In this document: positions 54,755-63,657 of the stretch, in pieces
Position numbering within the stretch: position 1 is the stretch's first letter
How the letters are laid out: the number at the start of each line of letters is the position of its first letter
Source: Halolamina sediminis
GTDB lineage: Archaea; Halobacteriota; Halobacteria; Halobacteriales; Haloferacaceae
Length of the DNA stretch: 64,000 nucleotides
Direction of reading: 5' to 3'
Assembly: GCF_001282785.1 (NCBI RefSeq)
Contig: NZ_CVUA01000001.1
Span: forward strand, 2,666,001 to 2,730,000
Program-made: the position numbers and the translations under genes
Notes under the pieces: model-generated
Database searches by the model: none
What the model saw: only the letters and a program-made list of their open reading frames with translations
What the model was told of the DNA's origin: nothing

Positions 54755-54887
54755 GACAGTCGTCACCACGCACCGTAGGGAGATAAGCGTTTCTCCGGAA
54801 CCCCAACGCTGAAAAGGAGAAATGGACCCCTCGGCGGGGCGGTGGAGGCGATACGTCTTAACCCATGAGGACAATACATCTCGTACG

Positions 54888-57536
54888 ATGGCTCAGACGG
54901 GGAACCAGGAACTCACGGAGCGGTTCATCCAGTTCTACCGGAACTACTACCGGGAGGAGGTGGGGCGGCTCGCACAGGAGTACCCCAACGAGCGCCGCTC
55001 GCTCTACGTCGACTACAACGACCTGTTCACGTTCGATCGCGATCTGGCGGAGGACTACCTCGCCAAGCCCGAACAGATGCAGGAGTACGCCGAGGAGGCG
55101 CTCCGGCTGTACGACCTGCCCGCGGACGTGAGCCTCGGGCAGGCCCACGTCCGCCTGCGCGCGCTCCCGTCTGAGCAGACCGTCGACATCCGCGATCTGC
55201 GGGTGCAGGACGACCACATCGGCTCGATGATCGCCGTCCAGGGGATCGTCCGCAAGGCGACCGACGTGCGGCCGAAAGTGACCGAGGCCGCCTTCGAGTG
55301 TCAGCGCTGCGGGACGATGAGCTACATCCCCCAGAGCGACGGCGGCTTTCAGGAGCCCCACGAGTGTCAGGGCTGTGAGCGACAGGGCCCGTTCTCGGTC
55401 AACCACGACCAGTCGGAGTTCGTCGACTCCCAGAAGCTCCGGGTCCAGGAGAGCCCCGAGGGGCTGCGCGGCGGCGAGACCCCCCAGAGCATCGACGTCG
55501 ACGTCGAGGACGACATCACCGGGAACGTGACTGCGGGGGATCACGTGACCGTGACAGGCGTCCTCCACATCGAACAGGTCACGCAGGGCCAGGAGAAGAC
55601 CGCCCTGTTCGACCTCTACATGGACGGGGTGACGATCGAGATCGAGGACGAGGAGTTCGAGGACATGGACATCACCGACGAGGACATCGCCGAGATCGTC
55701 GAACTCTCCAACGACCCCGAGATCTACGAGAAGATGGTCGGCTCCATCGCGCCGGCGATCTACGGCTACGACGAGGAGAAGCTCGCGATGGTGCTCCAGC
55801 TGTTCTCCGGCGTGACGAAGCATCTGCCGGACGGCTCGCGGATTCGCGGAGACCTGCACTTGCTGCTGATAGGCGATCCGGGTACCGGGAAGTGCCTCAA
55901 AGGTGACACAAAAGCGACACTATCTGATGGGCGCGAGCGGCCGATCCGTGAACTCGTCGAGGAGAACCTCGACGACCCCAAACCCGTCGACGATGGCGTC
56001 TGGGACGAGGTCGATTTCGAGGTACCGTCGATGCAGTCGGACGGACGTATCGAACAACAGCGTGCGACGAAAGTCTGGAAGCGTGAGGCGCCCGAGAAGC
56101 TCTACCGGATCAGTACTGCGAGCGGGCGTGAACTGGAAGTCACACCGTCACATCCGCTGTTCGTCCCCGGTGGCCGAGGTCCAAGCGCGGTTCGAGCAGC
56201 CGAACTGGAGACGGGACAGTTCGTCGCAACAGTCCAAGAGGGCCAGTCAGCACTGACCGACGGTGGTACGGCCACAGTTGGGACGCGATCCACGGGCCCG
56301 TCGACTGTCGAGGACATCGACTGGGACCGTATCGAGTCCATCGAGCCCGTCGAGCCCGAAGACGACTGGGTGTACGATCTGGAGGTCGAAGGGACCCACA
56401 ACTACCTCTCGAACGGTGTCGTCTCGCACAACTCCCAGATGATCTCCTACGTCGAACAGGTCGCCCCCCGCTCCGTCTACACCTCAGGCAAAGGATCGTC
56501 CGCTGCGGGCCTTACTGCGGCGGCTGTGAGGGACGACTTCGGCGACGGCCAGCAGTGGACGCTCGAAGCCGGCGCGCTCGTGCTCGCGGACAAGGGGATC
56601 GCCGCCATCGACGAGCTGGACAAGATGGATTCGGGGGACCGCTCGGCGATGCACGAGGGGCTCGAACAGCAGAAGATCTCCGTCTCCAAGGCGGGCATCA
56701 ACGCGACACTCAAGAGCCGGTGTTCGCTACTCGGCGCCGCGAACCCGAAGTACGGCCGGTTCGACCAGTACGAGCCCATCGGCGAGCAGATCGACCTCGA
56801 GCCGGCGCTGATCTCGCGGTTCGACCTGATCTTTACCGTCACCGACCAGCCCGACCCCGAGCACGACAGCCGGCTGGCCGAGCACATCCTCAAGACGAAC
56901 TACGCGGGGGAGCTCCACACCCAGCGCGAGGAGAACCCCAACTCGGAGTTCACCGAGGAGCAGGTCGAGAACGTCACCGAGGAGGTGGCGCCGGACATCG
57001 ACGCCGAGCTCCTGCGGAAGTACATCGCCTACGCCAAGCGCAACGTCTACCCGACGATGTCCGACGAGGCCAAAGACGCGATCGAGGAGTTCTACGTCGA
57101 CCTGCGCTCGAAGGGCGCCGACGAGGACGCCCCCGTCCCCGTCACCGCCCGGAAGCTGGAGGCACTGGTTCGGCTCGCTGAGGCCTCCGCGCGGGTCCGG
57201 CTCTCGGACACCGTCGAGGAGCAGGACGCGGACAAGGTGATCGAGATCGTCCGGGACAGCCTGGAGGATATCGGCGTCGATCCCGAGACCGGCGAGTTCG
57301 ACGCCGACGTGATCGAGACGGGGACGAGCAAGTCCCAGCGCGACCGGATCAAGAGCGTGAAGGCGCTGATCGGCGACATCGAAGAGGAGTACGACGAGGG
57401 TGCGCCGATCGAGGAAGTGCTCGACCGCGCCGGCGAGGTCGGGATGGACGAGGACAAAGCCGAGAAGGAGATCGAGAGCCTGCGCAAGAAGGGCGAGCTG
57501 TACGAGCCCGTACAGGGCCACCTCCGGACGACGTGA
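54888..57536 (+). CDS. mcm: MCM replicative DNA helicase precursor with a mini-intein
   Basis: An 882-residue precursor. The N-terminal MCM domain has a zinc motif CQRCGTMSYIPQ and ECQGC (from Cys138). The AAA+ domain has Walker A GDPGTGKS, which is split between Lys335 and Ser by an intein (residues 336-515), Walker B AAIDELDK (Asp575-Glu576) and the arginine finger Arg644 (LISRFDLIFTV). The C-terminal winged helix lies at about 810-882 (APIEEVLDRAGEVGMDEDKA). Spliced MCM should have 702 residues. It unwinds DNA at the replication fork as a hexamer. Without splicing, the P-loop is broken, so splicing is needed for life. Confidence 0.97.
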   Translation: MAQTGNQELTERFIQFYRNYYREEVGRLAQEYPNERRSLYVDYNDLFTFDRDLAEDYLAKPEQMQEYAEEALRLYDLPADVSLGQAHVRLRALPSEQTVDIRDLRVQDDHIGSMIAVQGIVRKATDVRPKVTEAAFECQRCGTMSYIPQSDGGFQEPHECQGCERQGPFSVNHDQSEFVDSQKLRVQESPEGLRGGETPQSIDVDVEDDITGNVTAGDHVTVTGVLHIEQVTQGQEKTALFDLYMDGVTIEIEDEEFEDMDITDEDIAEIVELSNDPEIYEKMVGSIAPAIYGYDEEKLAMVLQLFSGVTKHLPDGSRIRGDLHLLLIGDPGTGKCLKGDTKATLSDGRERPIRELVEENLDDPKPVDDGVWDEVDFEVPSMQSDGRIEQQRATKVWKREAPEKLYRISTASGRELEVTPSHPLFVPGGRGPSAVRAAELETGQFVATVQEGQSALTDGGTATVGTRSTGPSTVEDIDWDRIESIEPVEPEDDWVYDLEVEGTHNYLSNGVVSHNSQMISYVEQVAPRSVYTSGKGSSAAGLTAAAVRDDFGDGQQWTLEAGALVLADKGIAAIDELDKMDSGDRSAMHEGLEQQKISVSKAGINATLKSRCSLLGAANPKYGRFDQYEPIGEQIDLEPALISRFDLIFTVTDQPDPEHDSRLAEHILKTNYAGELHTQREENPNSEFTEEQVENVTEEVAPDIDAELLRKYIAYAKRNVYPTMSDEAKDAIEEFYVDLRSKGADEDAPVPVTARKLEALVRLAEASARVRLSDTVEEQDADKVIEIVRDSLEDIGVDPETGEFDADVIETGTSKSQRDRIKSVKALIGDIEEEYDEGAPIEEVLDRAGEVGMDEDKAEKEIESLRKKGELYEPVQGHLRTT
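55893..56432 (+). mobile_element. MCM mini-intein without homing endonuclease
   Basis: A 180-residue intein at the P-loop (GDPGTGK / CLKGDTKATL ... SNGVVSHN / SQMISY). Block B is VTPSHPLFV, and it ends VVSHN before a +1 Ser, so the splicing residues look complete. No LAGLIDADG motif is found; the centre is a short acidic linker (ATVQEGQSALTDGGTATVGT), so it seems to be a natural mini-intein after loss of the endonuclease. Insertion into a P-loop is a frequent choice of inteins because the site is conserved. Confidence 0.95.
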
Positions 57537-57548
57537 CACCAGTCACGG

Positions 57549-57690
57549 CTCGTGACCGGCGCCGAGCTTCGGCTCGGCGCTTGGAGCGTGTTGCCGTGAC
57601 TGTGTTGCACTGACTACCGCTCGTGACCGGCGCCGAGCTTCGGCTCGGCGCTCGGAGCGTGTTGCCGTGACTGTGTTACGCCGACTACCG
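57549..57690. repeat. Two tandem 71-bp copies each with a UUCG-loop hairpin
   Basis: Units begin CTCGTGACCGGCGCCGAGCT at 57549 and again at 57620, with only a few differences. Each contains GCGCCGAGC-TTCG-GCTCGGCGC (57559-57580 and 57630-57651), a perfect 9-bp stem closed by the extra-stable TTCG tetraloop. They lie just after the mcm stop and could form strong RNA 3' ends. Confidence 0.92.
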
Positions 57691-57732: not shown

Positions 57733-58008
57733 GTGGACCACATCTCCGCGCTGCGCAACGTCGAGGAGGCGTTGCGGGCGTTCGAGAACGGCGAGGCCGA
57801 CCTGGCGACCACCCAGCGGCGCGTCCAGTCCGTGCTTCAGAGCTACGCTACCGAGTTCGAGGCCGAGGAGCGCCGACCCTACCGAGCCCACGGCGAGGCG
57901 CCCGCCGACGGCGTCGTCGTCGTCGCGCCAGACGTGGAAACGGCAAAAACGCGAGTATTAGAACTCACAGACGCCGAAAGCTCGTCGTTCGACGTCGAAC
58001 CGCTCTGA
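57733..58008 (+). CDS. Small haloarchaeal protein of the mcm-minD cluster
   Basis: A 91-residue protein: HISALRNVEEALRAFENGEA, DLATTQRRVQSVLQSYATEF, and a strand-like end VVVVAPDVETAKTRVLELTD. I chose the GTG at 57733, because CGCTTATGG (57698-57706) sits 27-35 nt ahead as a TATA-like element, although an ATG at 57703 inside that element is in frame. No known domain. It opens the gene cluster that leads to the MinD-like ATPase. Confidence 0.65.
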   Translation: MDHISALRNVEEALRAFENGEADLATTQRRVQSVLQSYATEFEAEERRPYRAHGEAPADGVVVVAPDVETAKTRVLELTDAESSSFDVEPL

Positions 58009-58079
58009 CTGTTCTCACTATTGAGAAGTCGAAAAGGCTATGTTACCACCGTATGTACGTTAGGTAGAGAGGCACGCCC

Positions 58080-58730
58080 GTGACTGCACCGCAGACAGCC
58101 GAGACGATACCCGAACGCTTGACGGGCGCGAACAGCACCCTGCTCCTCACCTCGTCGTTCACCGACGAACGGCACTGTACGGAGCTCCTGCACCCCGACG
58201 ACCCCGCCGAGACGAACGTCCTCTGGGTGTCCTACACGAAATCCCCGGACCAGCAGCTCCGGCGATGGCGCGAGCACACCGACGAGCGGCCGGCGGAGAT
58301 GGGGATCGTAAGCGTCGAGGACTCGACGCGCTCGGTCGCCGCCGAGACAGGAGGCAGCAGCGGTCCCGGGGGCCCGTCGCTCCCGGAGACGAACGCGCCC
58401 ATCGAGACGGTGAACAGCCCCAACGACCTGACCGGGCTGGGCATCCGTATCACCGAGTTCCTCACCGACTGGGACGAAAAAAACGACAACCGAACCGTCG
58501 TCTGTTTCGACTCGCTGACCGCGCTCCTGCAGTACGTCGAACTCGAGACCGCCTACGAGTTCCTGCACATCATCACCGGCCGAATGGCGAACACCGACGC
58601 GTTCGCCCACTTTCACATGGATCCGGATGCGCACGACGATCAGACCGTCGAGATCATCACCAGCCTGATGGACGGGGTCGTCGAGGTCGATGCGAGCGGC
58701 GAAGAGCATATCCGGGCGCGCAAGTCTTAA
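58080..58730 (+). CDS. RecA/KaiC-fold protein without a Walker A motif
   Basis: A 216-residue protein that resembles the RecA/KaiC core: first strand TLLLTSSFTDERHC, second NVLWVSYTKSPDQQLRRWRE, a Walker B-like strand NRTVVCFDSLTALLQYVELE, and EFLHIITGRMANTDAFAHFH. The phosphate loop GxxxxGKT expected after the first strand is missing (it reads TSSFTDERH), so ATP hydrolysis is unlikely. Start GTG at 58080. Proteins of this kind (DUF7504 in some databases, from memory) recur next to haloarchaeal signal or division genes. It may act as a structural partner. Confidence 0.65.
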   Translation: MTAPQTAETIPERLTGANSTLLLTSSFTDERHCTELLHPDDPAETNVLWVSYTKSPDQQLRRWREHTDERPAEMGIVSVEDSTRSVAAETGGSSGPGGPSLPETNAPIETVNSPNDLTGLGIRITEFLTDWDEKNDNRTVVCFDSLTALLQYVELETAYEFLHIITGRMANTDAFAHFHMDPDAHDDQTVEIITSLMDGVVEVDASGEEHIRARKS

Positions 58731-58756
58731 TTTTCTACGAACACAGCAGCAACCAA

Positions 58757-59095
58757 ATGCTGCTGGTCGCGACGTACTCTCGCGAGGCACGGACGAGCCT
58801 GCGGAACGTCTGTCGGGGGCACGAGGAGGCCACGGTCCGGCAGTTCGGCCGGGCAGCGCTGCTGGCGGACACCGAGTTCGGGGCGTTTCTCGCCCTCCGC
58901 TTGCGGGAGAAACACGGCGCCGACGTCCAGATCGAGCGCACCGAGCCGCTGAACGAGTACGAGTCCGTCCCGGAACGGGTCCGCGAGGCCGCAGCGGCGT
59001 ACGAACAACGGGACCACCCGAGCACGCCGTACCCGAAGTTCGCATCCGGCACCGATCACCCCGAGCCAACGGCGATGCAGGGCCGGGAGCTCTGA
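58757..59095 (+). CDS. Cluster protein of unknown function
   Basis: A 112-residue protein: LLVATYSREARTSLRNVCRG, HEEATVRQFGRAALLADTEF, GAFLALRLREKHGADVQIER, LNEYESVPERVREAAAAYEQ. No known domain; alpha/beta composition. The stop overlaps the start of the next gene by one base (TGATG), indicating coupling. It begins 26 bp after the RecA-fold protein gene. Confidence 0.65.
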   Translation: MLLVATYSREARTSLRNVCRGHEEATVRQFGRAALLADTEFGAFLALRLREKHGADVQIERTEPLNEYESVPERVREAAAAYEQRDHPSTPYPKFASGTDHPEPTAMQGREL

Positions 59096-59919
59096 TGCGG
59101 GTCGTCGAGGACGGCCGAGTCGTCGGCGAGGGGCACGCGATCGATCTCCGCGGGGAGCCGTACTCGTCGGAGACGGTTCGGGCAGCGATACAGGGCGCGG
59201 AGACGGCGCTGTCGATCGACTGTCTCGCCCCGTCGCGGTGGTGGGAGCAGCTCGCCGTTCCCGACGACGGAACCAAGCCGCTCTGCCGGCTCGTCGCCGC
59301 CGCGCGGGCCCGAGGCTGCCGATCACCGACCGAGCGAGCGTTAGCGGCCGCCGAGCGTGAACTCCGCGAGCTCACGGTCGAGGCGGTGTCGACCGCCTCA
59401 ACGCGCCGACAGCTCGCCGACGCCGGGACCGAGGTGGAACGGCTTCGAGAGGAGGTCGCCGCCGCCCGTGGACGCCTCCAGAGCCGGCGGGAGACGGGCG
59501 CGGACACGGCTGAGGCCGAGGCGGCGCTCGAAGAAGCGACCCGACGGCTCTCCGAGGCCGAAACCGAGCGCGTCGCCGCCGAACAGGCCCACGAGGACGC
59601 GCAGCGACGGGTGCGCGAGGCTCGCGACGCTCGCGAACGACGGCTCCGACTGCAGGACCGCGTCGCGAACCGCCGGCGGGAAGCCCGACGCGCGCTCGCC
59701 GTATCGGTCGCCGACGAGTTCGCGGCCGCCGTGGACGCCGTCCCGGGCGAGGCGACGCTCTCGACGGAGCCGCTGAAAGTCGACGGCGGCGACGTGACGG
59801 CTGCGCTGGCGGCGGCCCGAGTTGCCGACCTCCACGCGCCCGTGCTCGACGCAACTGGGCGGTTCGACAGCGCCTCGGCGGCCGCGGACGCGCTCGGCGC
59901 GCCCGTGATCCGGCTCTGA
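59095..59919 (+). CDS. Coiled-coil cluster protein
   Basis: A 274-residue protein. Residues about 80-210 are a long charged coiled coil (TEVERLREEVAAARGRLQSR, AEAALEEATRRLSEAETERV, ARERRLRLQDRVANRRREAR). The N-terminal 70 residues form an alpha/beta part (GHAIDLRGEPYSSETVRAAI) and the C-terminal 65 residues another (DVTAALAAARVADLHAPVLD). Such architecture suits a scaffold between the RecA-fold protein and the ATPase. Overlapping start with the gene before supports an operon. Confidence 0.7.
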   Translation: MRVVEDGRVVGEGHAIDLRGEPYSSETVRAAIQGAETALSIDCLAPSRWWEQLAVPDDGTKPLCRLVAAARARGCRSPTERALAAAERELRELTVEAVSTASTRRQLADAGTEVERLREEVAAARGRLQSRRETGADTAEAEAALEEATRRLSEAETERVAAEQAHEDAQRRVREARDARERRLRLQDRVANRRREARRALAVSVADEFAAAVDAVPGEATLSTEPLKVDGGDVTAALAAARVADLHAPVLDATGRFDSASAAADALGAPVIRL

Positions 59920-59957
59920 CCCCGACCTTTTGAACGAGCGGGCGGGCACCCCCGCAG

Positions 59958-60689
59958 ATGGAGCTCGACTGGACACAGGAATCCGCCGCAGGGGTGACGC
60001 TGGTCCGCGTCCGCCTCAGGAACGAGCGTGCGACCGACCGTCGAGTCCGCCTCCGGAACCGGCTCGACGGCCCCGTCCTGCCGCCGCGACGCCACGGAGT
60101 GCCGGCGGCTGGCTGGGACCGCGACGGTGTGACGGAAGTCGTCCCCGCCAACCAAACCGTGGCGCTGGGGTACGCCTCGCCAGCACCGACGACGGCGCCG
60201 CCGGTGACTATCGACGAGGTCGGTCGCGTCGAAGAGGAGTCGGACCACAGCACGTCGGAGGCAGCCGTCAGGGAACTCGGCGATCACCGACCGCCGCGGG
60301 CAGTGCTCGGCGGGGAGAGCGAGAGCGACAGGGGCAAAACGGGCGGGGAGCGTTCGGTCGTCGATCGAACCGCGGACACGATCGACGATCAGCGAGACAC
60401 CACCGACGGGCGTTCCGCGCGACACGCGTCACTCCCCGACGAAGCCGGGGTGCTGCTCGCACCTTATCGAACGCGAATCCGGACCGCCGAAGCGCTAAAC
60501 ACCGCCGGGGTCGTCGAAGCGACCGCACTGCTCGACGCGAACGGCAGCCTCGCCGGCGTCGAGTCGCTCGCGGCCGACCTCGACGCCGACGCGCGGGAGC
60601 TCCGTGCGCTCGCCCGGGCCGCGGACGCGTTGGCCGCCCGCGCGGCGGCGACGGCGCCGCCGACGGACGCGCTCCGGAGGCTGTCGTGA
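59958..60689 (+). CDS. Cluster protein with disordered middle region
   Basis: A 243-residue protein. The N-terminal 90 residues look like a beta-sandwich (VTLVRVRLRNERATDRRVRL, GVTEVVPANQTVALGYASPA). A polar, disordered middle of about 70 residues follows (GGESESDRGKTGGERSVVDR), then a helical C-terminal region (RIRTAEALNTAGVVEATALL, ELRALARAADALAARAAATA). The stop overlaps the GTG of the MinD-like ATPase (GTGA). A membrane or partner interface is possible, but no function can be named. Confidence 0.65.
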   Translation: MELDWTQESAAGVTLVRVRLRNERATDRRVRLRNRLDGPVLPPRRHGVPAAGWDRDGVTEVVPANQTVALGYASPAPTTAPPVTIDEVGRVEEESDHSTSEAAVRELGDHRPPRAVLGGESESDRGKTGGERSVVDRTADTIDDQRDTTDGRSARHASLPDEAGVLLAPYRTRIRTAEALNTAGVVEATALLDANGSLAGVESLAADLDADARELRALARAADALAARAAATAPPTDALRRLS

Positions 60690-61342
60690 TCCTCGCCGTC
60701 GCGAGCGGGAAGGGCGGCGTCGGCAAGTCGACGGTCGCGTACAACCTCGCGGGCGCGCTGGAGGGCGTCGTCGTCGACGGCGACCTCGGAATGGCGGACC
60801 TCCCCGCCGACTGCGGACCCACGCTACACGACGTGCTGGCCGGGCGCGCCGGCGCCCGTGAGGCCATGCAGGCGGGCCCAGTGACGGTCCTCCCCTGCGG
60901 CCGGTCGCTCGCGGGTGCCCGCGCGGCCGACGTGACGGAGCTAGGCGACGCGCTCGAACCCATCGAGCGCGACCACGGGATCGTCGTGATCGACTGCCCA
61001 GCCGGACTCCGCGCGGACGTGGGTGTGCCGTTGGCCGTCGCCGACGCGGCCGTCGTGGTCGCTTCGCCGGAGCCGTTCGCGCTCGCGGACGCGCTCCGGA
61101 CTCGGGAGTTGGCTCGCGAACTCGACGCGCCGCTGTCGGCGGTGGTGCTGAACAGGGTCGTCGACGATCCGCCGACGCCGACGGTGCATTCGGCACTCGG
61201 CGCGCCCGTCACGTCGGTGCCGGCTGACCCACGGCTCAGCCGGTCGATCGAGGCCGAAGCGCCGGTCGTCGACGCCGCGCCGGAAAGCGAGCCGGCGGCC
61301 GCCTTCGCGTCGCTGGCCGAGCGAGTCGAGCGAAGCGAGTGA
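60686..61342 (+). CDS. MinD/ParA-family ATPase
   Basis: A 218-residue deviant Walker A ATPase. KGGVGKST (in AVASGKGGVGKSTVAYNLAG) keeps both lysines; switch I is VVDGDLGMADL and Walker B/switch II is IVVIDCPAGLRADVGVPL. It lacks the usual membrane-targeting amphipathic helix at the C-terminus (ends FASLAERVERSE). From memory, the Haloferax MinD1 homologue sits in a similar neighbourhood after mcm, and haloarchaeal MinD proteins place motility or other structures rather than FtsZ. Start GTG at 60686, translationally coupled to the preceding gene. No MinE or MinC gene is present. Confidence 0.85.
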   Translation: MILAVASGKGGVGKSTVAYNLAGALEGVVVDGDLGMADLPADCGPTLHDVLAGRAGAREAMQAGPVTVLPCGRSLAGARAADVTELGDALEPIERDHGIVVIDCPAGLRADVGVPLAVADAAVVVASPEPFALADALRTRELARELDAPLSAVVLNRVVDDPPTPTVHSALGAPVTSVPADPRLSRSIEAEAPVVDAAPESEPAAAFASLAERVERSE

Positions 61343-61356
61343 GGAAAGTGGTGTTC

Positions 61357-62211
61357 TCAGTCCTGTAGCGCCTGATACGTCGTCCGGACGGTGACCGCGG
61401 TCACGTCCGCCACGTCGGCCGCCTCGGCCTGCGTGACCGTCTGCCCCTCGCGGCGGGCGGCGAGGTAGAGCGCGCCCGCGGCGACGCCGCCGGGGTTGCG
61501 GCCGTTGGCGTGGCCCGAGTCGACCGCCGCCTCCGCGAGTTCGCGAGCGCGCCGGCGGACCGCCTGCCCCAGATCGAGCTCGCTGGCGAAGCGGGCGACG
61601 AACTCCGCGGGCTCGGCGGCCGAGACGGGCAGGCCGAGTTCGCGGTTCATCGCGTCGTAGGCCGCGCGGTGTTCCGCGGCGGTCGCTTTCGCGGCGTCGA
61701 GCACCTCCTCGGTCGTGCGCGAGACGCCCGCGACCCGGCAGGCGGCGTAGACGGCCGCGCTGGCGAACCCCTCGATCGAGCGCCCGCGCAGGAGGTCCTC
61801 GCTCTGTGCGGACTCGAACAGCGAGCAGGACTGATCGCGGATACGGTCGGGCAGTTCGAGCGCGCCCATCAGCCGCCGGATCTCGGTGAAGCCGTACACC
61901 TGATTGCGCTCACGCTTCGATCGGATCTGCGTCCGGCGGTGTTGGCGGCGCAGGCGGGACCACTTGCGGTTCTTCCCGCGGCCGTCGCGCCCGATCTCCG
62001 TCGAGAGCCCGCGGTCGTGCCGGGAGCGCGTCAGCGGTGCGCCACACCGGGCCGGGTTGCGGTCGTCGTCCTCGAAGCTGCGCCACTCGGGGCCACGGTC
62101 GAGCCGGTCGGTCGAGACGACCAGCCCACAGCCCTCACAGACCGTCTCGTCGCCGTCGGCGGTCAGTCGCCCGTCGCACTCGGGACAGCCGGTCGCACGC
62201 GTCGTGCTCAT
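61357..62211 (-). CDS. tfb: Transcription initiation factor B (TFB/TFIIB family)
   Basis: A 284-residue protein. The zinc ribbon is TGCPECDGRLTADGDETVCE with GCGLV at the N-terminus; the B-finger/linker region is DRGPEWRSFEDDDRNPARCG, APLTRSRHDRGLSTEIG. Two cyclin-like repeats follow (FTEIRRLMGALELPDRIRDQ, IEGFASAAVYAACRVAGVSR; then RRRARELAEAAVDSGHANGR, NPGGVAAGALYLAARREGQT). It recruits RNA polymerase to TBP-bound promoters. Haloarchaea have several TFBs with separate regulons; this one is shorter than the general ones and lies convergent with the MinD-like gene. It diverges from a helix-turn-helix gene through a palindrome-rich gap. Confidence 0.92.
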   Translation of the reverse strand: MSTTRATGCPECDGRLTADGDETVCEGCGLVVSTDRLDRGPEWRSFEDDDRNPARCGAPLTRSRHDRGLSTEIGRDGRGKNRKWSRLRRQHRRTQIRSKRERNQVYGFTEIRRLMGALELPDRIRDQSCSLFESAQSEDLLRGRSIEGFASAAVYAACRVAGVSRTTEEVLDAAKATAAEHRAAYDAMNRELGLPVSAAEPAEFVARFASELDLGQAVRRRARELAEAAVDSGHANGRNPGGVAAGALYLAARREGQTVTQAEAADVADVTAVTVRTTYQALQD

Positions 62212-62380
62212 ACTCGAAGATCGGTCCCGATCGGATACATAAACCCGGGTGGTTCCCGGGGTTTCGATCCCGCTCCCGTCGGTCGAACGTACCGATAACC
62301 GGTACGTTCTCTCACCGCTACTCTCTAGGTATAGTTCAATAGTGAAAACTATTAAACTATATCGCGAAGAACGCCCGCGT
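62212..62380. promoter_or_regulatory. Divergent promoter region with two palindromes
   Basis: Between the tfb and the HTH gene lie AACGTACCG-ATAAC-CGGTACGTT (62286-62308, perfect 9-bp arms) and AATAGT-GAAA-ACTATT (62338-62353). The latter runs into ATTAAACTATATCG (62351-62364), the TATA region 20-30 nt before the HTH gene's ATG. On the minus strand a TTTATGTATCC (about 62233-62243) lies 22-32 nt before the tfb ATG. The palindromes suit autoregulation by the HTH protein. Confidence 0.6.
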
Positions 62381-62878
62381 ATGACGCTCGAAGAGATCGC
62401 CGCCGGCATCGAGGTGACCGCGGAGCAGGAGGCCCGCGGCGTCGCCGCCGCCGACGAGACGGGCGAGGCGCTGGTCGAGCGTCTCCGTCCGCACGCGGGC
62501 GCGCTTCCCTGTACGCCCGAGGCCGCGGCGACCGTCGTCGAGACACACGCCGCGGGAACGAGCGTGGGCAAGAGCGCACGCGAGGCCGGGATCGCGCCCG
62601 TGACGGCCGCGAAGGCGCTGCACCGCTGTGGCGTCTCGGGCGTGACGCCGCTGTCGCCGATGGCTCGGGAGATCGTTCGGGACTGGCAGGCCGGCGAGCT
62701 CTCCCGGGCCGAAGCCGTCGAGCTGACGGGCGCAAGCGAGGCGGAGTTCGCGCTGGGGAGCTACATCGAGAGCCACGACGCCGACCCTGCGCTGTCGGCC
62801 GCGGTCGCGGACGTGGGCAGCCCCACGGACGAGGATCCGCTCACCGACGCGGTCGGCGACGTCGACGAGCTGTTCTAG
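62381..62878 (+). CDS. Helix-turn-helix-type cluster protein
   Basis: A 165-residue acidic protein. Two helix-turn-helix-like segments: VGKSAREAGIAPVTAAKALH and LSRAEAVELTGASEAEFALG. The first 40 residues are helical (LEEIAAGIEVTAEQEARGVA). It likely binds DNA, perhaps the palindromes just upstream of its own gene and of tfb. Its last 4 bases overlap the convergent ParA-like gene. I recognise it only as a conserved haloarchaeal protein. Confidence 0.7.
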   Translation: MTLEEIAAGIEVTAEQEARGVAAADETGEALVERLRPHAGALPCTPEAAATVVETHAAGTSVGKSAREAGIAPVTAAKALHRCGVSGVTPLSPMAREIVRDWQAGELSRAEAVELTGASEAEFALGSYIESHDADPALSAAVADVGSPTDEDPLTDAVGDVDELF

Positions 62879-63657
62879 TTTTCGCGCAGCGATTCGACTG
62901 CTGCCACGAGCCCGTCTTCCGCTAACGGGAAGTCGAGTTCGCGGCCGAGAACGACGTCGGCGGCGGCCGCGAGCGCGTCGACCCCGGCCTCCGTCTCGAG
63001 GCCGGCGGGCGCCTCCCCATCGAACTGCGGGAGGATCGCGTCGGCGTCGGCCTCGGGGAACGCCCCCGTCCCCGCGCGGTCGGTAGCGAGGACGGCGTCG
63101 GCGTTCGTCCCCACGTCCTGCAGGCGGCCGCGGATCGTCTGGACCGCGTCGACGCCGCGCTCCGTCGCGGGGGCGACGACGGCCACCCGTTCGGCGGCCG
63201 TCACCGCCGCGACCGCGGGGTTACTCCCGAGCGGCGGCGTGTCGATCAGTACGCGGTCGAACGCGGTCGCCGCCGCCGTGATCCGCTGCTCCAGTTCCTG
63301 TGCGGCCTCGGGGGCCTTCGCCCGTGCGAGGCGCTCGAACGGCGCCCGGGCGGGGAGGCAGACGATCCGGCCCGGTTCGGGCAGCGCCTCGGCGTCGAGC
63401 GCCGCACGGTCGGGGTCGGGGTCGTACTCGATCGTCCCCGCCGAGAGCGGCCTGTCGCTCCCGTCGGTGACGAGCGTCGTCGCGTCCGGGTCGATCCGGC
63501 CCGGGAGGTGCCGGGCGAGCCCTTGCGTGTCGTAGGCGGTGTCGAGCACCGCCACGTCGTCGCCGCCGGCGGCCAGCGCGTTGGCGAGTTCGAGACAGGT
63601 CCGGGTCGTGCCTGCGCCGCCGGTCGCGCCGACGAGCGCTGCAGTCGAGAGCGCCAT
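62875..63657 (-). CDS. ParA/MinD-like protein with altered P-loop (no lysines)
   Basis: A 260-residue protein with a ParA/MinD-like frame: GATGGAGTTRTCLELANALA in place of KGGxGKTT, VAVLDTAYDTQGLARHLPG, VLIDTPPLGSNPAVAAVTAA and VAVVAPATERGVDAVQTI. Both functional lysines, the signature Lys and the Walker Lys, are Thr. Nucleotide binding may remain, but normal hydrolysis is unlikely. ATG at 63657. It is convergent with the HTH gene and lies on the other strand from the MinD-like ATPase at 60686, which keeps both lysines. It may act as a regulator or decoy partner of that ATPase. Confidence 0.78.
   Translation of the reverse strand: MALSTAALVGATGGAGTTRTCLELANALAAGGDDVAVLDTAYDTQGLARHLPGRIDPDATTLVTDGSDRPLSAGTIEYDPDPDRAALDAEALPEPGRIVCLPARAPFERLARAKAPEAAQELEQRITAAATAFDRVLIDTPPLGSNPAVAAVTAAERVAVVAPATERGVDAVQTIRGRLQDVGTNADAVLATDRAGTGAFPEADADAILPQFDGEAPAGLETEAGVDALAAAADVVLGRELDFPLAEDGLVAAVESLREN

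Follow-up and report, generated by a model that had tools for sequence, protein, structure and literature searches.

Organisation of the locus

Beside mcm in Halolamina sediminis, within the 64,000-nucleotide stretch of DNA analysed here (the window), lies a compact set of genes for P-loop-type proteins, a coiled-coil protein and transcription factors (Table 1). The gene set and its coordinates were checked from open reading frames, sequence and Pfam matches, and agree with a preliminary description of the locus once some corrections are made. That description counted five plus-strand genes where we find six before TFB (DUF7854, DUF7504, DUF7855, DUF7856, DUF7857 and MinD1). The overlaps that it placed at 59095 (DUF7855/DUF7856, TGATG) and at 60686 (60686-60689, DUF7857/MinD1, GTGA) are both present. 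It also held that the convergent and divergent pairs overlap or share a palindromic promoter, which applies to DUF7858 and pseudo-ParA (4-nt overlap, 62875-62878) and to TFB and DUF7858, with a palindrome between them, and not to MinD1 and TFB, which converge with a 14-nt gap. The protein that it called RecA-fold is DUF7504, whose similarity to ArlH/KaiC-type proteins is weak. As had been proposed, one of the P-loop-type proteins encoded here is active and two are degenerate, and the locus has transcription-factor genes of its own together with a palindromic promoter.

Table 1. Genes and promoter element of the locus (positions in the window)
Feature	Position	Strand	Remarks
DUF7854	57733..58008	+	Small protein directly 3' of mcm; Pfam PF25252, E 5e-34
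DUF7504	58080..58730	+	RecA-fold type, without P-loop; optional member; PF24336, E 1e-41
DUF7855	58757..59095	+	PF25253, E 4e-58
DUF7856	59095..59919	+	Coiled coil; PF25254, E 4e-82
DUF7857	59958..60689	+	PF25256, E 4e-37
MinD1	60686..61342	+	MinD-family ATPase; TIGR01969, E 3e-44
TFB transcription initiation factor	61357..62211	-	PF00382, E 2e-38; HVO_0226 position in Haloferax
25-bp palindrome GAACGTACCGATAACCGGTACGTTC	62285..62309	n/a	73 nt from TFB ATG, 71 nt from DUF7858 ATG
DUF7858	62381..62878	+	HTH-like; PF25257, E 3e-64
Pseudo-ParA	62875..63657	-	ParA/MinD-type by family match

Encoded proteins

MinD1 had been called an intact ATPase, and its deviant Walker A motif (GKGGVGKS in the window) is conserved as GKGGVGK[ST], including the signature and the P-loop lysine, in all 41 aligned sequences. 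The match to TIGR01969 (151 bits) falls under the curated cut-off of 202 bits, and the archaeal MinD structures 1hyq/1g3q are matched with an E-value of 4e-25; FleN structures are also among the PDB matches. The C-terminus, where MinD ATPases carry an amphipathic membrane-targeting helix, is short, the TIGR01969 match stopping at position 232 of 251 in proteins of 216-243 amino acids. Among the locus proteins, no Pfam or NCBIfam match was found to MinC or MinE, the partners in the bacterial Min system. In Haloferax, deletion of minD1 (HVO_0225) with other minD genes caused no motility defect beyond that of minD2/4, and no division or growth phenotype was reported for minD1 deletions (PMC11621097, PMC11588486).

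The second ParA-like protein had been described as lysine-less, correctly so. Pseudo-ParA carries GATGGAGTTR in place of KGGxGKT in the window, and both Walker-A lysines are replaced throughout, GxxGGxGxTR being conserved at the 95% level over 41 homologues (one of them a 69-aa fragment). The Walker-B aspartate and a TQGL motif are retained. Judging from these motifs, pseudo-ParA should not hydrolyse ATP, and it is a strong further example of a ParA-type pseudo-ATPase retained during haloarchaeal evolution. Its top PDB sequence matches are Soj (E 1.6e-4) and McdA (E 6e-4).

DUF7855, the most conserved DUF protein of the locus, is predicted to adopt a compact ferredoxin-like beta-alpha-beta-beta-alpha-beta fold followed by C-terminal helices, and DUF7856 to form two small lobes linked by a coiled-coil hairpin at about residues 101-204 (AlphaFold2, mean pLDDT 96 for each). 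In the alignment, DUF7857 comprises an N-terminal domain (PPRxxGxPxxGWD), a variable linker and a helical C-terminus. PDB sequence searches with the profiles of these three families returned nothing meaningful, DUF7855 having no significant match. Foldseek ranks of SMC/Rad50 heads in the PDB, themselves not significant (best E 0.014), and a weak match to ASRP prompted us to consider DUF7856 as a degenerate SMC/Rad50 head. We rejected this assignment: profile comparison with hhalign aligned the coiled coil alone, the lobes matching ASRP with E-values of 0.4-0.9.

Conservation and co-inheritance

The preliminary description expected the gene order to be conserved across haloarchaea. In 48 loci with DUF7855-DUF7856, the window included, the adjoining genes are DUF7854 (43 loci), mcm (41), DUF7857 (41), MinD1 (40), TFB (36), DUF7858 (35) and pseudo-ParA (32). 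Relative orientation is identical, with the exception of one pseudo-ParA, and the 4-nt overlap of DUF7857 and MinD1 is retained in 38 of 40 loci. In one genome (L062), DUF7856 and DUF7857 are fused into one protein. The comparison thus came out the opposite way to the rare adjacency that had been named as grounds for giving up the idea, and for this reason we regard the locus as a real unit. The eight genes do not form one inseparable block: DUF7504 occurs in only 18 of the 48 loci, and there are two separable modules (DUF7854-DUF7855-DUF7856-DUF7857-MinD1 and TFB/DUF7858/pseudo-ParA), which still co-occur.

This co-occurrence is evident among 145 haloarchaeal genomes, of which 87 carry all of DUF7855, DUF7856, DUF7858 and pseudo-ParA and 51 carry none, leaving 7 exceptions (pairwise Jaccard 0.93-0.99). 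DUF7858 and pseudo-ParA are found together in 88 genomes. A distance of more than 8 kb, or a different contig, separates DUF7858 from DUF7855 in 31 of 88 genomes, and for pseudo-ParA the same is true in 42 genomes. The all-or-none pattern holds even when the two halves are far apart. Losses affect scattered genera of several families, and where one marker is absent all are nearly always absent, unlinked ones too. TFB or pseudo-ParA is occasionally kept alone (G055, G123, G029, G046). The locus is, in sum, a haloarchaeal gene set of eight or nine beside mcm, gained and lost jointly. Several loci that are otherwise kept lack MinD1. MinD1 may therefore be accessory, which weakens the view of it as the heart of a machine.

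The palindrome and its candidate binder

The 25-bp palindrome between TFB and DUF7858 (consensus GAACGTACCGGTNACCGGTACGTTC) is new. Some 72 nt separate it from each of the two start codons, and it is present in all 42 intergenic regions of loci with adjacent TFB and DUF7858, with 0-8 mismatches of 24 in 41 of them (7-14 in shuffles) and at a near constant distance from DUF7858. At three mismatches or fewer, it was found in 31 of the 145 genomes, all carrying DUF7858, and never in a genome devoid of DUF7858. A single copy is present in 28 of these 31 genomes, and we rejected a multi-copy parS on this ground. We also rejected it as an operator of mcm, DUF7854, DUF7855, MinD1 or pseudo-ParA, since no match above background was found upstream of these genes. 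Two sister genomes (G033 and G140) have six copies, the extra ones dispersed over the chromosome; at least two shared extra copies are intergenic and precede other genes, which is where sites of a transcription regulator would be expected. Relaxing the search to the palindrome core yielded weak matches at scattered positions, including one that recurs in many genomes and is presumably ribosomal.

DUF7858, with two HTH-like segments judged by eye, is a candidate binder of the palindrome; it has no Pfam match to ribbon-helix-helix families. Another protein could be the binder, because the palindrome stays beside TFB, and not DUF7858, where the two genes are apart (G128), and because at least one genome that lacks DUF7858 retains a degenerate form upstream of TFB, TFB remaining there without the rest. 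TFB itself contains a PF08271 zinc ribbon and two PF00382 stretches (TFIIB repeats). The identifiable control site of this TFB bears on the specialisation of the many haloarchaeal TFBs.

Possible functions

The preliminary description knew of no function for the set; the papers searched assign none, and we found no literature on DUF7854-7858. Tentatively, we propose one ancestral haloarchaeal functional unit of two modules, a MinD1/coiled-coil assembly and a transcription branch of DUF7858, pseudo-ParA and TFB. We infer that DUF7855, DUF7857, MinD1 and the rod-like coiled-coil protein DUF7856, with its small globular ends, would form a cytoplasmic complex, in which ATP-dependent dimerisation of MinD1 would switch its binding to a DUF7857/DUF7856 partner. 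In the divergent promoter, DUF7858 would bind the single palindrome upstream of both TATA-like boxes and set the level of the TFB variant and of DUF7858 itself. Pseudo-ParA would report the assembly state to DUF7858, as a sensor or anti-activator acting on it, as FleN/FlhG does for FleQ. The cargo would not obligately be the archaellum or a chemotaxis array. Co-occurrence despite distance, conserved order and overlaps, the fusion of DUF7856 with DUF7857 and the palindrome pattern argue for such a unit; MinD1 loss from some loci, the uncoupling of palindrome and DUF7858 in G128, TFB kept alone and the minD1 deletion with no reported phenotype argue against it.

The modules could instead be unrelated neighbours by inherited synteny, lost in parallel since both are dispensable in certain lifestyles. 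Their frequent separation and the solitary retention of TFB or pseudo-ParA agree with this, but unrelated modules would be expected to disappear independently, and the near all-or-none absence, also where the genes are unlinked, makes it unlikely. The preliminary description suggested a positioning or assembly machine. Read as one that positions the motility apparatus (archaellum or chemotaxis), the idea has partial support, and a motility or archaellum role as the general function is weakened. MinD2 and MinD4 affect Haloferax motility (PMC11621097, PMC11588486), the TFB variant HVO_0226 is named in the CsmR motility network (PMC13286277), and the locus is positively associated with CheF (odds ratio 3.6 and p 4e-4 without phylogenetic correction). 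However, 22 of 88 carrier genomes, the window's among them, lack this chemotaxis adaptor, at least nine carriers lack archaellins, 26 genomes have CheF and no locus, and minD1 deletion adds nothing to the minD2/4 defect. We rejected the locus as part of chemotaxis or the archaellum because this distribution does not fit, and a role in positioning the apparatus appears decidedly improbable.

A system for chromosome partition or origin-region organisation, in which DUF7858 bound to the palindrome would form a parS/SegB-like centromere complex, MinD1 and pseudo-ParA would be its ParA-type partners and DUF7856 would act as an SMC-like bridge, is rather unlikely but has a positional argument. The Orc1 gene of the presumed main origin is close to both modules, and to pseudo-ParA genes even where these have been relocated. 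Its median distance from DUF7858 is 144 kb over 36 genomes (a KS test over 22 genera gives p 1e-12; of the two candidate Orc1 genes of G135, the nearer was taken), and the CheF control has no bias towards Orc1 over genera. The ParA fold, palindrome and DNA-binding protein recall SegAB, SegB binding palindromes upstream of segAB (PMC12284271). Against this, origin proximity can be explained by inherited synteny with mcm and by symmetrical inversions around the origin; the palindrome occurs once per genome, at a fixed place in a promoter, versus 39 enrichment peaks for SegB (PMC12284271), and the extra copies in the sister genomes are scattered over the chromosome. Moreover, pseudo-ParA should not serve as a normal ATPase motor, hhalign found no SMC homology in the DUF7856 lobes, and DUF7858 has no ribbon-helix-helix match. 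A further version, which we consider improbable, is an undescribed machine organising or segregating the origin region of the polyploid chromosome, in which a non-hydrolysing ParA would read a centromere-like DUF7858-palindrome complex, MinD1 and the DUF7855/7856/7857 coiled-coil assembly would be the mechanical part, and the dedicated TFB would couple transcription.

Under our tentative two-module proposal, Haloferax MinD1, a phenotype-less orphan, gains defined partners that are inherited with it, together with a likely regulator and a specific candidate operator of 25 bp, and its function thereby becomes directly testable.

Relation to known systems

With SegAB of Sulfolobales, the locus shares a ParA-family protein, a small DNA-binding protein and a palindromic promoter site, and it displays one SegAB/ParABS trait, a putative specific DNA site beside the operon. 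Another, several sites clustered near the origin, is absent, 28 of the 31 genomes with a match having one site. It further differs from SegAB by the lack of a ribbon-helix-helix match, by separate MinD1 and coiled-coil genes and by a neighbouring ParA inactive by motif: the ParA ATPase next to DUF7858 is the one without lysines, the intact MinD1 belonging to the other module. Similarity of pseudo-ParA to the ParA-type Soj and McdA is confined to the Walker-B region. SMC, Rad50 and ASRP combine an ABC-type head bearing Walker A/B motifs with a coiled coil; DUF7856 shares the coiled-coil hairpin and has no Walker motifs.

As in FleN/FlhG-FleQ, where a MinD-like protein binds and restrains the adjacent transcription factor, a MinD/ParA-type protein is encoded beside a putative DNA-binding regulator. 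The locus differs in that no FleQ-type family is matched by DUF7858, the Walker lysines are missing from the ParA-like protein, and there is no strict link to motility genes. Among Haloferax MinD1-4, the locus MinD1, also a MinD-family ATPase, matches HVO_0225 by position. MinD4 oscillates and positions the motility machinery. MinD1 of the locus differs by its putative partners DUF7855-7857, of no described role, by a short C-terminus and by having no reported phenotype.

Gene order and conservation

In the window, mcm is followed by genes for DUF7854, DUF7504, DUF7855, DUF7856, DUF7857 and MinD1 on the plus strand (module A), then by those for a TFB (minus), DUF7858 (plus) and a ParA-like protein without Walker-A lysines, here pseudo-ParA (minus), which make up module B. 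The starts of DUF7856 and MinD1 overlap the stop codons of the genes directly upstream. By position, the region matches minD1 (HVO_0225) and the TFB gene (HVO_0226) of Haloferax volcanii, as numbered in the literature (PMC11621097, PMC11588486, PMC13286277), and DUF7855, DUF7856 and DUF7858 are all found in the H. volcanii control genome. Halolamina species are the named relatives with 85-88% identity in DUF7855.

Features of the mcm-pseudo-ParA region (window coordinates)
Feature	Position	Remarks
mcm	54822-57536	Precedes the gene set; from ORFs, sequence and Pfam
Intein-like insert in mcm	55893-56432	~180 residues, interrupting Walker A (GDPGTGK/CLKGDTK...VVSHN/S)
Tandem repeat	57545-57686	Between mcm and DUF7854; two 71-nt units, 93% identical, with hairpin GCGCCGAGCTTCGGCTCGGCGC
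Stretch after mcm	57733-63657	
Palindrome	62285-62309	73 nt to TFB ATG, 71 nt to DUF7858 ATG
Second inverted repeat	62330-62361	TATAGTTCAATAGT/ACTATTAAACTATA; covers the DUF7858 TATA-like region; by eye, partly kept in locus L032, absent from distant relatives

The preliminary description proposed that this order is conserved across haloarchaea, and the survey of 60 regions from other genomes, in which genes were identified with profiles built up from the window proteins, bears this out. Among 48 loci with DUF7855-DUF7856, the window counted in, mcm adjoins in 41 and MinD1 in 40, alongside DUF7854 (43), DUF7857 (41), TFB (36), DUF7858 (35), pseudo-ParA (32) and DUF7504 (18). Relative orientation is uniform, one pseudo-ParA excepted, and the 4-nt DUF7857/MinD1 overlap is retained in 38 of 40 loci. 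The locus is split into its two modules in several genera, where the detached module B mostly retains its own arrangement at another genome site (loci L084-L091). One region (L067, G085) places about 8 kb between DUF7854, DUF7504 and a DUF7855 fragment on one side and an intact DUF7855-to-TFB block on the other, as if by insertion with partial duplication.

Joint inheritance

Across 145 evenly drawn genomes of Halobacteria, DUF7855 occurs in 92, DUF7856 in 88, and DUF7858 and pseudo-ParA in 89 each (one DUF7858 being a remnant); all four are present in 87 and none in 51. The seven exceptions comprise three genomes of one family that keep DUF7855 and TFB (G029, G046 and G136, the last also with DUF7857 and MinD1), G124 with a DUF7855 fragment, G055 and G123, which keep pseudo-ParA (G055 also the DUF7858 remnant), and G053, without pseudo-ParA. 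Decaying loci are seen in G055 (L083), where DUF7504 and pseudo-ParA alone remain beside mcm, and, among the 87, in G099 (L043), where a deletion has left half of DUF7856 fused to the DUF7858 tail. DUF7855 and DUF7858 are over 8 kb from each other or on separate contigs in 31 genomes, and pseudo-ParA is apart from DUF7855 in 42 (at least one apparent separation, in G120, being a draft contig end), so that simple hitch-hiking does not explain their joint presence. As the genomes are not independent, the case for co-inheritance rests on repeated joint loss, which recurs in scattered genera (e.g. g9, g10, g11, g12, g20 and g21).

Encoded proteins

The GKGGVGK[ST] motif is conserved in 41 MinD1 sequences, and the nearest solved structures to MinD1 are archaeal MinD proteins; in G018, G053, G098, G135 and others, MinD1 was not found in the vicinity of DUF7855 and DUF7856. 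Pseudo-ParA was correctly described as lacking P-loop lysines: its conserved P-loop pattern contains none, while the Walker-B aspartate and a TQGL motif are retained. DUF7855 has the highest mean column identity (71%) of the three DUF proteins aligned. AlphaFold2 models (pLDDT 96 for both) give DUF7855 a ferredoxin-like strand-helix-strand-strand-helix-strand order with C-terminal helices, and DUF7856 a coiled-coil hairpin with two lobes; neither has a significant PDB match. DUF7856 ranks heads of SMC, cohesin, Rad50 and RecN proteins highest (best E 0.014), but we do not claim an SMC-type protein, since its profile, set against those of archaea-specific SMC-related proteins, aligned in the coiled coil alone. 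DUF7856 and DUF7857 are fused in a single ORF at L062:7871-9529, a hint of direct contact.

A putative operator

A 25-bp palindrome (consensus GAACGTACCGGTNACCGGTACGTTC) is present in 42/42 intergenic regions between the divergent TFB and DUF7858 genes, with 0-8 mismatches of 24 in 41 regions and 10 in one (shuffled sequences, 7-14). Of the arm positions departing from consensus, 46 of 120 are still complementary between arms, as would be expected if a symmetrical dimer recognised the site. By eye, TATA-like stretches flank it in the window, so placed that it lies upstream of each. Genome-wide, at three mismatches or fewer, it was found in 31 genomes, each of which has DUF7858 (hypergeometric p 2e-8, kinship among genomes ignored); the reversed control pattern gave zero matches. 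It was not found in the promoters of mcm, DUF7854, DUF7855, MinD1 or pseudo-ParA.

Where TFB and DUF7858 lie apart (G128), the palindrome stays with TFB, and of three genomes with TFB and without DUF7858, G136 has a clear degenerate copy at the same distance, while the matches there in the other two are no better than chance. The copies in G128 and G136 point to a predicted control element primarily of TFB, for which DUF7858 is the natural candidate binder.

At the three-mismatch limit, copies are single except in G031 (two) and in G033 and G140 (six each), two species of one genus with four extra sites at corresponding positions (L092-L101). At least two shared extra sites are intergenic, in front of other genes, and another, lying in or close to a coding region, may owe its match by chance to the protein encoded there. 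The genes near the four sites, named by eye, are copper-ATPase-like, uracil-DNA-glycosylase-like, MBL-fold-like and thiL-like. An expanded regulon is possible.

Possible roles

There is very firm support for a conserved gene set of two modules, strongly inherited together, and for a conserved putative operator undescribed in the literature searched. A role in partition, which we consider unlikely, would fit the origin proximity of DUF7858, whose median distance from the presumed main origin, as marked by its Orc1 gene, is 144 kb in 36 genomes. This amounts to 0.11 of the half chromosome (KS test on 22 genus means, p 1e-12; some contig sizes estimated, and in G135, with two Orc1 candidates, the closer one used). 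CheF shows no departure from uniform over genera, and relocated module B genes lie 43-224 kb from Orc1 in 10/11 genomes. However, mcm synteny by inheritance, with inversions about the origin, would yield an identical picture. Slightly less probable again are two modules that are merely co-dispensable.

Motility, raised by the preliminary description, may be a role in certain species; as the general function it is excluded, CheF being absent from 22 of the 88 genomes with the locus (66/88 carriers vs 26/57 non-carriers have it). The window genome has archaellin family matches, CheF not being found; in its sister genomes G073 and G089 neither was found, and all three carry the locus. Motility positioning is improbable: HVO_0226, a reference transcript in other work, is named as a member of the CsmR motility and shape network (PMC13286277), yet minD1 deleted along with the other minD genes had no growth or division effect and a motility defect no greater than that of minD2/minD4 (PMC11621097, PMC11588486). 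The best single reading, still tentative, is an assembly of MinD1 and the coiled-coil protein that has a transcription branch.
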